The notes beneath the pieces are model-generated. The model was not told the DNA's origin. It worked only from the letters and a program-made list of their open reading frames with translations, and ran no database searches. 64,000 bases of DNA from positions 1 to 64,000 of the forward strand of contig JAJFIR010000051.1 in NCBI GenBank assembly GCA_021774795.1, read 5' to 3'. Below, piece by piece: positions 56,489-62,948 of the stretch. How positions within the stretch are numbered: the first letter of the stretch is position 1; each line of letters begins with the position of its first letter. The DNA is from Emcibacteraceae bacterium. GTDB taxonomy: Bacteria > Pseudomonadota > Alphaproteobacteria > Sphingomonadales > Emcibacteraceae. A program made the translations under genes and the position numbers.

Positions 56489-57247
56489 ATGAAAACAAAT
56501 ATTCTAAAAACGACTATAGTTTGTGCAGCAATGGGGCTGTCCTCGTTCGGTCCAGCTCAGGCGCAAAGCATCGATACTGTCATTAAATCTGCGATAGAAA
56601 ACCCAGCGCGTGCAGAAGCAAACAGTTCACGTGACGCGGCACGGATGCCGGGCCAGGTGATTAAATTTATGGGTGTAATGCCTGGCGATACTGTCCTTGA
56701 TATGGTCTCAAACGGTGGTTTTTATGCGGAAATTCTAGCCGGTGTTGTTGGCGATGAAGGGCGCGTTCTTGCGCATATGTTCCCGGGTAACGGTATGGAC
56801 CCAGACGATGCTTATTCTGCAACAATTCGCACGGCTGATCATATGCAGAATGTCGTTCCGATTTATGCGACTTTTAATAGCCTCGATCTGAAGGAAAATA
56901 CACTTGATTATGTGTTTTTAATTCAGAACTTCCATGATTTTCATTTCGATCGTTTTGATGTTGATCTTGAGCGCATTCTGGCAATGTACCGCAAAGCATT
57001 AAAGCCCGGTGGCGTTATGGCGGTTATCGACCATCAAGCAGAAATGGGCGCGCCAGCAACCACCGGAACTACGGTTCACCGTATTGATGCCGCGGTTGTT
57101 AAAAGTGAAATGGCTGCCGCTGGTTTTAAACTAGACGGCGAGCTTGATATTCTTAAGAACAATACGGATGATCCGACGAAACCGGTTTTTGATCCATCGG
57201 TCCGCGGTAAAACAAGCCGTTTTATTCTTAAATTCAGTAACCCGTAA
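56489..57247 (+). CDS. Exported methyltransferase-like protein (COG4798 type)
   Basis: This 252-aa protein has a signal peptide (about 1-25, ending PAQAQ) and a class I methyltransferase-like fold: DTVLDMVSNGGFYAEILA in place of the usual glycine-rich motif I, then GRVLAHMFPGN, and LKPGGVMAVIDHQAE later. The SAM-binding GxGxG is reduced to a single Gly-Gly, and periplasmic location is odd for a SAM enzyme. Its actual activity is uncertain. Homologues of this type (exported, COG4798) are known in proteobacteria without clear function. Confidence 0.75.
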   Translation: MKTNILKTTIVCAAMGLSSFGPAQAQSIDTVIKSAIENPARAEANSSRDAARMPGQVIKFMGVMPGDTVLDMVSNGGFYAEILAGVVGDEGRVLAHMFPGNGMDPDDAYSATIRTADHMQNVVPIYATFNSLDLKENTLDYVFLIQNFHDFHFDRFDVDLERILAMYRKALKPGGVMAVIDHQAEMGAPATTGTTVHRIDAAVVKSEMAAAGFKLDGELDILKNNTDDPTKPVFDPSVRGKTSRFILKFSNP

Positions 57248-59084: not shown

Positions 59085-60134
59085 ATGCACGACATTGTTC
59101 AAAACTATTACGGTAAAGAGTTGCATAATTCAAATGATCTGAAAACCAGCGCGTGTTGTGACGTATCATCTGTCCCAGAGTGGTTAAAAGGCTTGCTAAA
59201 AAATATCCATCCGGAAGTGCTCTCTCGTTATTATGGATGTGGTTTGGTTTGCCCGCCTTTGTTAGAAGGTCGGCGGGTCTTGGATTTGGGCAGCGGCACT
59301 GGTCGCGATGTCTATGCTTTAGCTCAATTGGTTGGTCCTACGGGTAAGGTCGTCGGAGTGGATATGACTGATGAACAGTTGGCCGTTGCCCAGGATCACC
59401 AGGAATTTCATTCTGATGCCTTTGGTTATGATAACGTGCAATTTTTGAAAGGATACATCGAGAAGCTTGATGAGTTGGATTTAGAACCGGAAAGTTTTGA
59501 TGTGATTGTATCAAACTGTGTGATCAACCTTTCGCCTGATAAAGAAGCCGTACTCAAGGGTATCGAGCGTCTTTTAAAGCCCGGTGGAGAATTTTATTTT
59601 TCTGATGTTTATGCAGATCATCGTATTCCCGACGCAGTAAAAAATGATCCTGTCCTTTACGGAGAATGTTTGGGTGGAGCACTTTACTGGAATGACTTTG
59701 TTACCCTAAGTAAATCATGCGGCTTTGCTGATCCACGCCTTGTAGAGGACCGCCCCCTTGACATTACTGACCCGCAACTATCACAAAAAGTGGGCACTCT
59801 AAATTTCTATTCTGCAACATACCGCCTTTTTAAACTGAATAAATTGGAGAGCGATTGCGAAGATTATGGCCAAGCTGTGATTTATAAAGGTACCATTGCG
59901 GATCATGAACATCATTTTATCTTGGATAAGCACCACAATATTGAAACCGGTCGTGTCTTTCCGGTTTGCGGCAACACATGGCTCATGCTGCAAGACACAA
60001 GATTTAAAGAACATTTCACGTTCATCGGCGACTTCTCAAAACATTTCGGTATTTTTGAAGGATGCGGAACCAGCCTGCCATTTAATTCTGCAACTGATAC
60101 TGCGGATACCATTGAAACAGACGCATGTTGTTAG
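59085..60134 (+). CDS. arsM: Arsenite S-adenosylmethionine methyltransferase
   Basis: ArsM (349 aa) methylates As(III) successively using SAM. Motif I is VLDLGSGTGRD (65-75), followed by GVDMTDEQLA. The conserved arsenic-binding cysteines are in SNCVINLSPDK (Cys145) and GECLGGALYW (Cys195), with the 50-residue spacing of known ArsM enzymes. Additional Cys pairs are near the N-terminus (Cys24-Cys25, Cys52/Cys56) and at the very C-terminus (ACC). The ArsM C-terminal region follows to residue 349. It is 16 bp upstream of the PiT transporter. Confidence 0.9.
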   Translation: MHDIVQNYYGKELHNSNDLKTSACCDVSSVPEWLKGLLKNIHPEVLSRYYGCGLVCPPLLEGRRVLDLGSGTGRDVYALAQLVGPTGKVVGVDMTDEQLAVAQDHQEFHSDAFGYDNVQFLKGYIEKLDELDLEPESFDVIVSNCVINLSPDKEAVLKGIERLLKPGGEFYFSDVYADHRIPDAVKNDPVLYGECLGGALYWNDFVTLSKSCGFADPRLVEDRPLDITDPQLSQKVGTLNFYSATYRLFKLNKLESDCEDYGQAVIYKGTIADHEHHFILDKHHNIETGRVFPVCGNTWLMLQDTRFKEHFTFIGDFSKHFGIFEGCGTSLPFNSATDTADTIETDACC

Positions 60135-60150
60135 ACTGCAAATTTATTGA

Positions 60151-61290
60151 GTGGATATGATGAGTAATGAGTTATTAACTGTTATCGTTGCGGGTATTGC
60201 AATTTCTTGGGCCAATGGGTCTAATGACGTGTCCAAAGGCATTGCAACATTGGTTGGTGCAGGAGTGGCAAATTATAAAGGCGCACTTCTATGGGGCACT
60301 TTCTTTACTGCCGTTGGTGCCATTACGGGCACCTTTTTTGCACAGGCGATGGTCGCTACTTTTGGCGGCAAGCTTTTAACCGTCGCAGCCACACCTGATA
60401 TGGCGGTCGCGGTTGCCACCATTGGCGGTGCTGCCGGGTGGGTTTTACTTGCGACACGCACGGGATTACCGGTTTCCACAACCCATGCTATCGTTGGCTC
60501 AACTCTAGGTGTGGTTCTCGTGGCGTTTGGCGCGGATGGTATTGCTTGGAATCCGCTTTTACTCAAAGTTGCACTACCCTTGCTTCTAAGTCCGATCGCA
60601 GCCCTTGCCGCCACCATGGCACTTAGAAAGATATGGAATTATTGGCAGAACAGAAAAAAGGCAACCGGTGATTGCATATGTGTTGGGCAAAGCTCTGAAC
60701 TCTCTATGACACCGGGAAGTTCTGCGGCGACTATGTACCAGCAATCAGAATTATTGGTCACTATATGTGACACAGAATCTAACCAAGCAGTTGCGACAAG
60801 TGCTGTAATTACGGTAGATAAACTGCATTGGATCAGTGCCGGTCTTACGAGCTTTGCCCGCGGGATGAATGACGCGCCAAAACTTGCGGGCCTGATGCTA
60901 GCCGCTGCTTTGCTTTCTGGTGGCGCCATTACGCTTACCAACCAAACAGCTTTTATCGTCGTTGCGGTCGCCATGACGGCCGGTGGGTTGATGGCAGGAC
61001 TTAGAGTAACAAAGGTTCTCGCCGAGAAAGTAACGGTTATGAACCACCGTGAAGGTTTTGCGGCAAATCTGGTAACAAGTTCCCTTGTTACCAGTGGTGC
61101 TATCTTCGGTCTACCAATGTCAACCACTCATGTATCTTCTTCAGCTTTGTTTGGAATTGGCGCTGTTGGCGCAAAGGGTAACCTTAATATCAGTATGGTG
61201 AAAAAGCTTTTAGCGGCATGGGTTATTACCTTGCCGGGTTCTTCGTTTATCGGAATTACCCTATTTTGGTTGGCTGGACTAGTACAATAA
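60151..61290 (+). CDS. PiT-family inorganic phosphate transporter
   Basis: This 379-aa membrane protein has the two PiT signatures, WANGSNDVSKGIATLVG near residue 20 and SFARGMNDAPKLAG near 240, plus the matching STTHAIVG and STTHVSSSALFG motifs. A hydrophilic central loop (about 165-225) divides the halves. PiT carriers move metal-phosphate with H+ or Na+ and can also carry arsenate. Lying between arsM and the radical-SAM gene with tight spacing, it could supply or clear arsenate or phosphate for this pathway. That role is inferred. Confidence 0.88.
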   Translation: MDMMSNELLTVIVAGIAISWANGSNDVSKGIATLVGAGVANYKGALLWGTFFTAVGAITGTFFAQAMVATFGGKLLTVAATPDMAVAVATIGGAAGWVLLATRTGLPVSTTHAIVGSTLGVVLVAFGADGIAWNPLLLKVALPLLLSPIAALAATMALRKIWNYWQNRKKATGDCICVGQSSELSMTPGSSAATMYQQSELLVTICDTESNQAVATSAVITVDKLHWISAGLTSFARGMNDAPKLAGLMLAAALLSGGAITLTNQTAFIVVAVAMTAGGLMAGLRVTKVLAEKVTVMNHREGFAANLVTSSLVTSGAIFGLPMSTTHVSSSALFGIGAVGAKGNLNISMVKKLLAAWVITLPGSSFIGITLFWLAGLVQ

Positions 61291-61354
61291 GCAGGCATAA
61301 TAATGTAATTAAAGAAATGGCTTTCCGGTTATTTCAAACTGAGAAAGAAGAAGC

Positions 61355-62305
61355 ATGACGGAACAATTTAAATCGAATAGTTTTGCTGGTCCGCAACAAA
61401 ACCCTAAGAGTGAAGGATGGTACAAAACTCCTCTTGGTGACGAACGAGGGTACATTGATGCCTATACGTTAAAAGAACTTTGGTTTCATACGGGTACCGC
61501 CTGTAACTTGGCGTGTGATTTTTGTCTTGAAGGATCAAAACCCGGCGATACCCGCCTTGGCTTAGTCAAATTACATGACGTAGAACCCTATATTAAAGAA
61601 GCTTTAACCCTAGGCGTTGAACAATTTTCATTCACTGGCGGTGAGCCCTTTTTGGCGAAAGACTTTGTGAAAATCATAACCCTGGCGTCCGCACATCGGC
61701 CGTGTTTGGTGTTAACCAACGCCACTGAACCATTGCAGCGCAGGATAAAAAAACTGATGCCTTTGCTTAAAAGTAAACACGCTGTTTCTTTCAGAGTTAG
61801 CCTTGATCATTATGATGAACTGGCGCACGATCTAGGGCGCGGCGAAGGTAACTTTGCCAAAGCACTTGTCGGGTTAAAAATGCTCTATAACATGGGGTTT
61901 AATGTCTCTGTCGCGCGTCATATTTTACCGAATGAAGATGATGATGTGACAGGGAAAGCTTTTAAGGAGCTTTTTAAAGAGAACGGATTACCCGAAGATC
62001 TTCATATGGTGGCTTTTCCGGATTTTGCATTGCCGGGTTCTCTGCCCGATGTTCCTTACATCACAACGAATTGTATGACTGAATTTCAAAATCAGCAGAA
62101 CCGTGAACAATTCATGTGCGCTTTTTCAAAAATGATAGTGAAAAAAGGCGGCAAAATTAAGATATACGCCTGTACCCTTGTTGATGACGATGATGAATAT
62201 GATCTCGGATCTTCATTGCAAGCCAGTATGAATGAACGCATTAGTATGAAACATCACCGTTGTTATAGTTGTTTTGCCTATGGTTCATCATGTAGCGAAC
62301 TTTAA
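61355..62305 (+). CDS. Radical SAM protein of the arsM cluster
   Basis: This 316-aa protein has the radical-SAM cluster motif CNLACDFC (C50, C54, C57), FTGGEPF (about 93-99) and SLDHYDELAHDLGRGEG. The C-terminal third holds further Cys residues, including HRCYSCFAYGSSCSEL at the end, which may bind a second cluster as in SPASM-type proteins. It is not evidently ArsS or ArsL by motifs I know. It follows the PiT gene by 64 bp. Co-occurrence with ArsM suggests adding an adenosyl-derived or other group to a methylated arsenical, but this is untested. Confidence 0.8.
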   Translation: MTEQFKSNSFAGPQQNPKSEGWYKTPLGDERGYIDAYTLKELWFHTGTACNLACDFCLEGSKPGDTRLGLVKLHDVEPYIKEALTLGVEQFSFTGGEPFLAKDFVKIITLASAHRPCLVLTNATEPLQRRIKKLMPLLKSKHAVSFRVSLDHYDELAHDLGRGEGNFAKALVGLKMLYNMGFNVSVARHILPNEDDDVTGKAFKELFKENGLPEDLHMVAFPDFALPGSLPDVPYITTNCMTEFQNQQNREQFMCAFSKMIVKKGGKIKIYACTLVDDDDEYDLGSSLQASMNERISMKHHRCYSCFAYGSSCSEL

Positions 62306-62561: not shown

Positions 62562-62948
62562 TCACATAGGTGGTGCAATAAGTGTCCCCAATGGAGCCAT
62601 CGGTTGCAGCGGGATATATTCAGCCGTAACCATACCTCTACGACCTAAAGGAAGTGAACCGATCGCTGTCTTGGCTTCCTCAACGCTTTTGGCATTTAAA
62701 ATAAACACGACCCCGCCGCCGTCGCCACGAAAATACCACTGGGAGATCATACCGCCAAGATGTAATTTTACCGTCTCCCTAACTTCCTCTTGCATAACTT
62801 CCCCAAAGTTCTCGGGTCGTTGAACATCAGCCTTCATCTTCACCAGTACCATTATGTTAGTAGTTGGCAATCCTTGAGACGGGGCTTGTGCAAAAACCTG
62901 GGTTGTAGTGAAAGCCATAAGCATGGCCGCAAATATTATTTTTTTCAT
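62562..62948 (-). CDS. Small secreted YciI/muconolactone-isomerase-like protein
   Basis: This 128-aa protein has a signal peptide (1-20, ending TQVFAQ) and one ferredoxin-like alpha/beta domain: NIMVLVKMKADVQRP, VVFILNAKSVEEAKTAIGSLP and AEYIPLQPM. The fold pattern resembles muconolactone isomerase, YciI or DUF3303 dimers. The secreted location is unusual for those enzymes. It is divergent from a TetR gene across a palindromic operator, so it is probably controlled by that regulator. Confidence 0.75.
   Translation of the reverse strand: MKKIIFAAMLMAFTTTQVFAQAPSQGLPTTNIMVLVKMKADVQRPENFGEVMQEEVRETVKLHLGGMISQWYFRGDGGGVVFILNAKSVEEAKTAIGSLPLGRRGMVTAEYIPLQPMAPLGTLIAPPM

Follow-up and report, generated by a model that had tools for sequence, protein, structure and literature searches.

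A 64,000-nucleotide stretch of contig JAJFIR010000051.1 from an Emcibacteraceae bacterium (assembly GCA_021774795.1; hereafter the window) carries three closely spaced genes encoding an ArsM-type arsenite methyltransferase, a PiT-family carrier and a radical S-adenosylmethionine (SAM) protein. We propose, with a probability of roughly 70%, that this block represents a cut-down arsenosugar-type pathway, in which ArsM would make dimethylarsenite and the radical SAM protein, as a stand-in for ArsS, would add a 5'-deoxyadenosyl group to arsenic. ArsS is the adenosyl-arsenical synthase of arsenosugar synthesis. A preliminary description of this DNA had read arsM plus a radical SAM gene as the logic of organoarsenical synthesis; the arsenosugar form of that logic gains support here, in that the radical SAM protein and its relatives (window-type rSAM) often occur among the genes that neighbour ArsS and appear to replace it at the genome level. 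That this protein is an ArsS-like radical SAM enzyme of arsenosugar-type clusters is comparatively well supported by sequence comparison; the ArsS kind is already known, and the window-type variant would be new. We put the likelihood of a chance neighbourhood low, because the same set of genes accompanies the rSAM in many genomes.

A candidate route to an arsenosugar-type product

In the proposed route, ArsM would methylate As(III) to dimethylarsenite, DMA(III), in keeping with a title cited in PMC8787705 that has ArsM supplying DMA for arsenosugars. The rSAM would then cleave a second SAM molecule and join its 5'-deoxyadenosyl group to arsenic, yielding 5'-deoxy-5'-dimethylarsinoyl-adenosine, much as the radical SAM enzyme ArsS is described, in a passage of PMC12159101, as adenosylating arsenic in oxo-arsenosugar synthesis. 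In relatives with a complete cluster, an MTAP-like phosphorylase would remove adenine. Its gene directly adjoins the rSAM in 9 of 12 same-family loci (in the other three the locus stops at the rSAM gene or within it) and occurs close to ArsS in 3 of 20, suggesting a 5'-substituted adenosine as the product of the rSAM. Chemically, the nucleoside expected here would be similar to methylthioadenosine, its methylthio group replaced by dimethylarsenic. Two glycosyltransferases, of families TIGR04282 and TIGR04283 (GT4282 and GT4283), would finally build the sugar product. The product and the order of steps are read from this gene context, and we can only infer the substrate because ArsM is not always present where the rSAM is, as seven of nine Marinobacter-type genomes tested illustrate.

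The radical SAM protein is related to ArsS

A profile comparison (hhalign) of 40 window-type rSAMs with 12 canonical ArsS proteins aligned the two families over nearly their full length (probability 97.5, E 7e-12, 261 columns, 21% identity), whereas BLASTP of two single sequences sees the core only (24%, E 2e-7). This makes the window rSAM and ArsS distant homologues. The window protein matches PF04055 (E 6e-18) and holds ten cysteines, of which nine are invariant in 40 sequences and the tenth (C117) nearly so. Its CX3CX2C motif spans residues 50–57 and is invariant both in the 40-sequence alignment and in 16 sequences that include a second clade. Six further conserved cysteines lie in the C-terminal part (C240, C255, C273, C303, C306 and C313). 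Five of these, C255, C273, C303, C306 and C313, align with ArsS C235, C250, C286, C289 and C297. The two families share a CX3CX2C core, a length of about 300 residues and an aligned C-terminal MC..C..CxxC..SSC pattern. They differ in the spacing of those C-terminal cysteines, in the position of the first motif cysteine (residue 50, against 32 in the ArsS protein L196) and in further cysteines, the window type having C240 as an additional conserved residue and lacking counterparts of ArsS C87 and C117.

Among the 25 of 46 NCBIfam matches listed, the window rSAM exceeds no family cut-off. The ArsS model TIGR04167 ranks third by E-value, with 57.9 bits against a cut-off of 300 over residues 37–185, and the best score belongs to the Rv1681 family (NF049973), with 105 bits against 380 over residues 41–216 only. 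Its cut-off excludes Rv1681 as the true family; the neighbouring genes also differ, and its sole member in our tree sits apart from clade A, clade B and ArsS, at the end of a long branch. The statement in the preliminary description that the protein does not match ArsS accordingly holds for the curated TIGR04167 model and fails for the deeper relation, in which the C-terminal cysteine patterns correspond. The window-type family has no name in current annotation. In the open literature we found no paper on it, most subscription papers lying outside the scope of the search.

The predicted structure (pLDDT 90.5, pTM 0.88) has as its nearest solved folds (VIA) BlsE (Z 20.2, 3.3 Å, 245 aligned residues), SkfB (Z 19.3, 3.1 Å, 234 aligned) and SuiB (Z 18.4, 3.4 Å, 238 aligned), and the VIA matches to BlsE, SkfB, SuiB and anSME extend into the C-terminal part of the model. 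On the predicted model, the nearest folds are thus radical SAM proteins with auxiliary domains, a shared fold that is silent on substrate; with BlsE and SkfB, whose substrates are unrelated, only this fold is held in common. ArsS was not among the listed rows of the fold search, and a search of solved structures with the ArsS alignment returned only YydG and SkfB chains at E ≤ 1e-5.

We searched 99 related genomes for window-type rSAM at E ≤ 1e-20 and found it in 40, as two groups: clade A (57–78% identical to the window protein) and clade B (33–39%). In a 58-row tree, 27 of the 28 rows labelled A, the window included, fall on one branch (support 99/99), ArsS forms its own branch (100/100), and clade B together with one Elusimicrobia row makes a third (98/88); the exception, L177, grouped with clade B. 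Because its outgroup branch is very long and the branch to ArsS measures 9.3 changes per column, the tree does not settle whether A and B are nearer to each other than to ArsS. TIGR04167 at E ≤ 0.001 matches 96 of the 99 genomes and all 14 controls, and ArsS was hence counted over its cut-off only; at that level it was found in 0 of the 99 relatives.

Window-type rSAM and ArsS share their neighbours

A scan of GTDB contigs recovered at least 579 rSAM relatives, and we analysed the neighbourhoods of the best 80 of these (the wide loci). When all open reading frames (ORFs) of at least 90 residues around them were clustered with no prior choice of genes, the commonest families after the rSAM itself were glycosyltransferases (42 loci, 72 members), VTT/FAD-oxidoreductase (39 loci) and ArsM (28 loci). 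Mapping a chosen panel of genes over 10 kb, or as far as the contig allowed, gave a similar picture: FAD oxidoreductase (FADox) in 43 of the 80 loci, GT4282 in 42, GT4283 in 41, VTT in 38, ArsM in 29 and sigma in 22, followed by SSS and MPE (17 each), MTAP (7), DUF547 (6), ArsC (4) and PiT (1). ArsM, in 23 of the 29 loci that have it, lies directly upstream of the rSAM on the same strand with a gap of at most 310 nucleotides. At least one of GT4282, GT4283, ArsM, MTAP and ArsC occurs in 54 loci, and 15 of the remaining 26 are Marinobacter-type loci with VTT, FADox, SSS and MPE. Among the layouts are GT4282-GT4283-ArsM-rSAM-VTT-FADox (Nitrosomonas, Methylotenera) and GT4282-rSAM-MTAP-GT4283 (Motiliproteus, Neptuniibacter). 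At one Nitrosomonas locus (L129:10934-13102), a VTT membrane domain and an FAD oxidoreductase appear joined in a single 722-residue ORF beside the rSAM.

For comparison, 20 canonical ArsS loci were chosen from 84 matches in 83 genomes. Their neighbours are drawn from the same set: GT4282 in 10, ArsM in 9 (seven of the nine weak, at 117–154 bits), FADox in 9, GT4283 in 8, VTT in 7, MTAP in 3, SSS and MPE in 2 each, and none in 1. The Marinobacter layout VTT-FADox-rSAM-SSS-MPE is mirrored at ArsS locus L262 as ArsS-SSS-MPE-VTT-FADox, and ArsS locus L264 combines SSS, VTT and FADox with both glycosyltransferases. ArsM lies within 10 kb in 2 of the 17 rSAM loci with the SSS-MPE layout (L135 and L149). 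A 316-residue protein at L142:12677-13627, for which neither Pfam nor NCBIfam gave a match under the limits applied, has relatives in 17 of the 80 rSAM loci and in 2 of the 20 ArsS loci (L259, L262); it belongs to an unnamed family, perhaps of the same pathway.

Co-occurrence across genomes

Across 397 Pseudomonadota genomes, we scored ArsS over its cut-off, window-type rSAM at E ≤ 1e-25 and TIGR04282 at E ≤ 1e-15. ArsS was present in 83 genomes and window-type rSAM in 43 (8 clade A, the window's included, and 35 clade B, split by E-value), and no genome had both (Fisher p 3e-5 for mutual exclusion, a value inflated by kinship). TIGR04282 accompanies both, in 80 of the 83 ArsS genomes and all 43 window-type genomes, against 14 of the 271 others (Fisher p 4e-41 for its association with window-type rSAM among non-ArsS genomes, again inflated by kinship). 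At the genome level, therefore, window-type rSAM seems to replace ArsS. The 14 genomes with TIGR04282 and neither rSAM (G114, G147, G183, G188, G238, G261, G267, G277, G293, G314, G344, G419, G439 and G468) possibly hold a further radical SAM family or remnants of the cluster. The 99 relatives show the same association: TIGR04282 occurs in 38 of the 40 rSAM genomes (G006 and G066 lack it) versus 4 of the 59 without rSAM (G001, G009, G043 and G058), and the rSAM occurs in 23 of 24 genomes with window-type ArsM, the exception, G027, being 69% complete.

A cut-down cluster in the window genome

The same-family genome G019 holds the full cluster, ArsM-ArsC-PiT-VTT-FADox-sigma-GT4282-rSAM-MTAP-GT4283. 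Its two transferases score just below the cut-offs of the NCBIfam 'arsenosugar biosynthesis glycosyltransferase' models (TIGR04282, 116 of 134 bits; TIGR04283, 178 of 182). GT4282 stands beside the rSAM in all 12 same-family clade A loci; six of these extend as far as ArsM, and contig ends truncate the rest. For the window-type family, though not at every locus, ArsM and the TIGR04282/TIGR04283 transferases make up the gene context; in the window only ArsM is close. A panel search of the window found ArsM, PiT and rSAM only, and no ArsC, VTT, FADox, sigma, GT4282, MTAP or GT4283, so that the absence of arsC stated in the preliminary description was confirmed.

The window genome keeps a cut-down version of its relatives' cluster, and homologues of several missing parts are encoded elsewhere in it. 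TIGR04282 and TIGR04283 members, both over cut-off, lie together on contig C6, MTAP homologues (44% and 34% identity) on C39 and C42, and an arsenate reductase homologue on C31, within an arsR-arsI/cadI-arsC-acr3 run in which arsC is under its cut-off and the other three are over theirs. The MTAP homologue on C39 may be no more than a housekeeping enzyme.

Genus mates of the window genome share its glycosyltransferase pair. Clade B rSAM occurs in 8 of 12, and another ArsM-like methyltransferase in seven of ten tested (G004-G008, G010 and G012). G001 and G009 have neither, and G002 has the rSAM without that methyltransferase. In the two copies of the methyltransferase that we read (L274, from G012, and L276, from the same-family genome G015), the four cysteines are present, and the best-scoring model for L274 is the arsinothricin-type ArsM (390 of 500 bits). 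Searched at the same thresholds, the window genome lacks both the clade B rSAM and this methyltransferase. Relative to its genus mates, the window genome thus looks as though one ArsM-rSAM pair had been exchanged for another.

Among solved chains, 5evj, annotated 'Arsenite methyltransferase', is the closest to the window ArsM (E 1e-100), ahead of other arsenic methyltransferases; C24, C52, C145 and C195 align with cysteines of 5evj, and the protein has a C-terminal CC. With the ArsM proteins from ten same-family genomes it shares 75–82% identity, and it scores under the NCBIfam ArsM cut-offs (best NF008823, 179 of 263 bits).

Evidence against the proposal and alternative readings

A number of observations weigh against an arsenosugar role. 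In 51 of the 80 rSAM loci, the 10 kb around the rSAM, or as much of it as the contig covers, showed no ArsM, and 11 loci, some on short contigs, lacked the common neighbours altogether except for FADox in one. At E ≤ 1e-25, ArsM was absent from seven of nine Marinobacter-type genomes drawn from the 15 SSS-MPE loci that have no ArsM nearby (those of L134, L138, L140, L141, L142, L144, L147, L150 and L152, of which L138 and L150 had it) and from six of six other rSAM genomes (L102, L110, L114, L116, L122 and L159). Likewise, 17 of the 40 rSAM genomes among the relatives had no window-type ArsM at E ≤ 1e-60, three of the 17 being 62–83% complete. The FADox and sigma panel genes are unspecific, FADox also matching a likely lipoamide dehydrogenase gene just beyond the end of the window, and 'arsenosugar' in TIGR04282 and TIGR04283 is an NCBI label, a function assigned by name in these organisms. 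Thirteen of 17 clade B loci (L051-L067) held no panel gene but the rSAM, and four did; the 13 both show the panel's background level and restrict what can be read into clade B, whose rSAM often lies beside unrelated genes that resemble, by eye, metZ-type, apaG and folE. All 35 clade B genomes, moreover, belong to the window's class, where the sampled genomes showed no ArsS, so that much of the ArsS exclusion may reflect lineage; by arithmetic from the tallies, a complete lack of overlap with ArsS is expected by chance about 1 time in 7 when clade A is taken by itself (8 of 397). Whether the rSAM occurs mainly without arsM, which the preliminary description named as a refuting outcome, has a mixed answer: arsM is within 10 kb in 29 of the 80 loci, some of them on short contigs, and ArsM is present in two of nine Marinobacter-type genomes, while other pathway genes remain.

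These gaps could mean that the rSAM acts on some other 5'-deoxyadenosyl acceptor than methylarsenite, with ArsM recruited only sometimes and the 'arsenosugar' names of the transferases misleading. The lack of ArsM in 13 of 15 named rSAM genomes tested fits this idea, as do the 15 loci with VTT, FADox, SSS and MPE and no ArsM, glycosyltransferase, MTAP or ArsC nearby. However, an ArsM-free layout of SSS, MPE, VTT and FADox also surrounds a true ArsS (L262, with L264 a near-equivalent), TIGR04282 is present in every window-type genome of the 397, and ArsM, where present, is usually adjacent and co-directional; we consider another acceptor unlikely, if worth keeping in mind. ArsM-poor hosts might instead take up methylated arsenic. 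A decayed cluster, which in the window genome would be stripped of its middle and tail genes and unable to yield a sugar product, would explain the seven genes missing at the locus, but all three frames are intact and counterparts of the transferases, MTAP and ArsC persist on other contigs, so we regard this as quite improbable.

Very little weight attaches to an arsinothricin-type enzyme that, like ArsL, would move a 3-amino-3-carboxypropyl (ACP) group to As(III). Such a reading draws on the arsM gene adjoining the rSAM, since a section of PMC8552651 places arsM directly beside the radical SAM gene in arsQML and assigns ACP transfer to ArsL. The same section, though, gives BgArsL 428 residues and only three conserved cysteines, features that the window rSAM lacks: it has 316 residues, six further conserved C-terminal cysteines, an alignment with ArsS and an adenosyl-type context, in which MTAP and sugar-transferase neighbours fit an adenosyl product. 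Least probable of all seems a SPASM maturase of ribosomally synthesized and post-translationally modified peptides lying near arsM by chance; SkfB and SuiB are among the nearest folds, yet the gene context is common to ArsS, and no unexplained small-protein family stood atop the neighbour clusters (first 45, with ORFs under 90 residues excluded, so that a short precursor could be missed).

The locus

The three ORFs lie intact on one strand with gaps of 16 and 64 bp, exactly as first described (Table 1). The PiT ORF starts with GTG and has in-frame ATGs at 60157 and 60160.

Table 1. Features of the arsM-PiT-rSAM block, in window positions.
Feature	Position	Strand	Description
arsM	59085..60134	+	As(III) S-adenosylmethionine methyltransferase, 349 residues, predicted from homology and four conserved Cys
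PiT-family (PHO4) carrier	60151..61290	+	379 residues; PF01384; possible arsenate/phosphate transport; lineage-specific neighbour, not core
ArsS-like radical SAM protein (window-type rSAM)	61355..62305	+	316 residues; unnamed family
CX3CX2C motif, C50, C54, C57	61502..61525	+	radical SAM [4Fe-4S] cluster; invariant in alignments
C-terminal C255, C273, C303, C306, C313	62117..62293	+	predicted auxiliary-cluster (twitch/SPASM-like) part; aligns with ArsS C-terminus

The carrier matches PF01384 (E 1.1e-59). It had been described as part of the pathway, a view that its distribution does not sustain: PiT is near the rSAM in 1 of the 80 wide loci and in 5 of 12 same-family loci, while three of the 12 run from ArsM or ArsC to VTT with no PiT between and four are cut by contig ends. 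On this distribution we reject PiT as an arsenosugar gene; it is an optional, lineage-specific extra, probably an arsenate/phosphate carrier of one lineage only. Base composition gives no sign of recent foreign origin, the G+C content at third codon positions of arsM, PiT and rSAM (0.394, 0.429 and 0.382) lying inside the range of the 39 window ORFs of at least 200 residues, these three included (0.315–0.430). A consensus promoter scan found 12 sites versus a shuffle mean of 7.2 (s.d. 3.0), and 8 terminators versus 4.2 (s.d. 2.3), excesses too weak to define a transcript. Upstream of the block, 56489-57247 encodes a small protein that resembles a methyltransferase, with a weak Methyltransf_11 match and, judged by eye, a start like that of a signal peptide; just downstream, 62562-62948 on the reverse strand is a 128-residue ORF whose start, again by eye, looks like a signal peptide and which has no Pfam match.

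Distribution of the family

The best 80 of at least 579 relatives include Marinobacter, Nitrosomonas, Methylotenera, Oceanospirillales, Hydrogenedentota and Fibrobacteria. Clade A hosts span Gamma-, Beta- and Alphaproteobacteria, Hydrogenedentota, Fibrobacterota and others, and clade B is found mainly in Alphaproteobacteria. A scan of IMG/VR gave five pattern matches and no relative.

Several plasmids carry related genes. On Roseomonas haemaphysalidis plasmid p546-1 (L033), a clade B rSAM lies near a TIGR04282 transferase, DUF547, a second radical SAM gene and a phosphonate-type ABC transporter, which might give the same pathway another means of transport. Plasmids of Miltoncostaea oceani (L034) and Mycolicibacterium vanbaalenii (L282) bear actinobacterial relatives of the rSAM core with a PhnD/SsuA-type binding protein and an acyl-CoA dehydrogenase; DUF2064 and selA/selB/selD are further neighbours in L034, and the L282 protein is a true Rv1681-family member. 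On Marinobacter adhaerens pHP-187 (L032:12001-12886), an unannotated rSAM homologue, matched in two pieces, is likely a broken copy.

Implications for arsenosugar synthesis

Arsenosugars and arsenolipids dominate the arsenic of marine food webs, and to our knowledge their bacterial makers are poorly mapped. We see an even chance that the window-type family, clades A and B together, is a second family of C-As bond-forming radical SAM enzymes interchangeable with ArsS, some of whose hosts, such as Marinobacter, use imported methylarsenicals without an ArsM of their own; the ArsM-free Marinobacter-type sets raise the question of which substrate is used. If the rSAM replaces ArsS, the candidate bacterial producers in the 397-genome sample would rise by about half (43 beside 83), and TIGR04282 plus either rSAM would serve as a marker for mapping the pathway. 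Should the proposal hold, arsenosugar-type synthesis would be common in marine and nitrifying heterotrophs and lithotrophs, where any survey built on the ArsS model would miss it.

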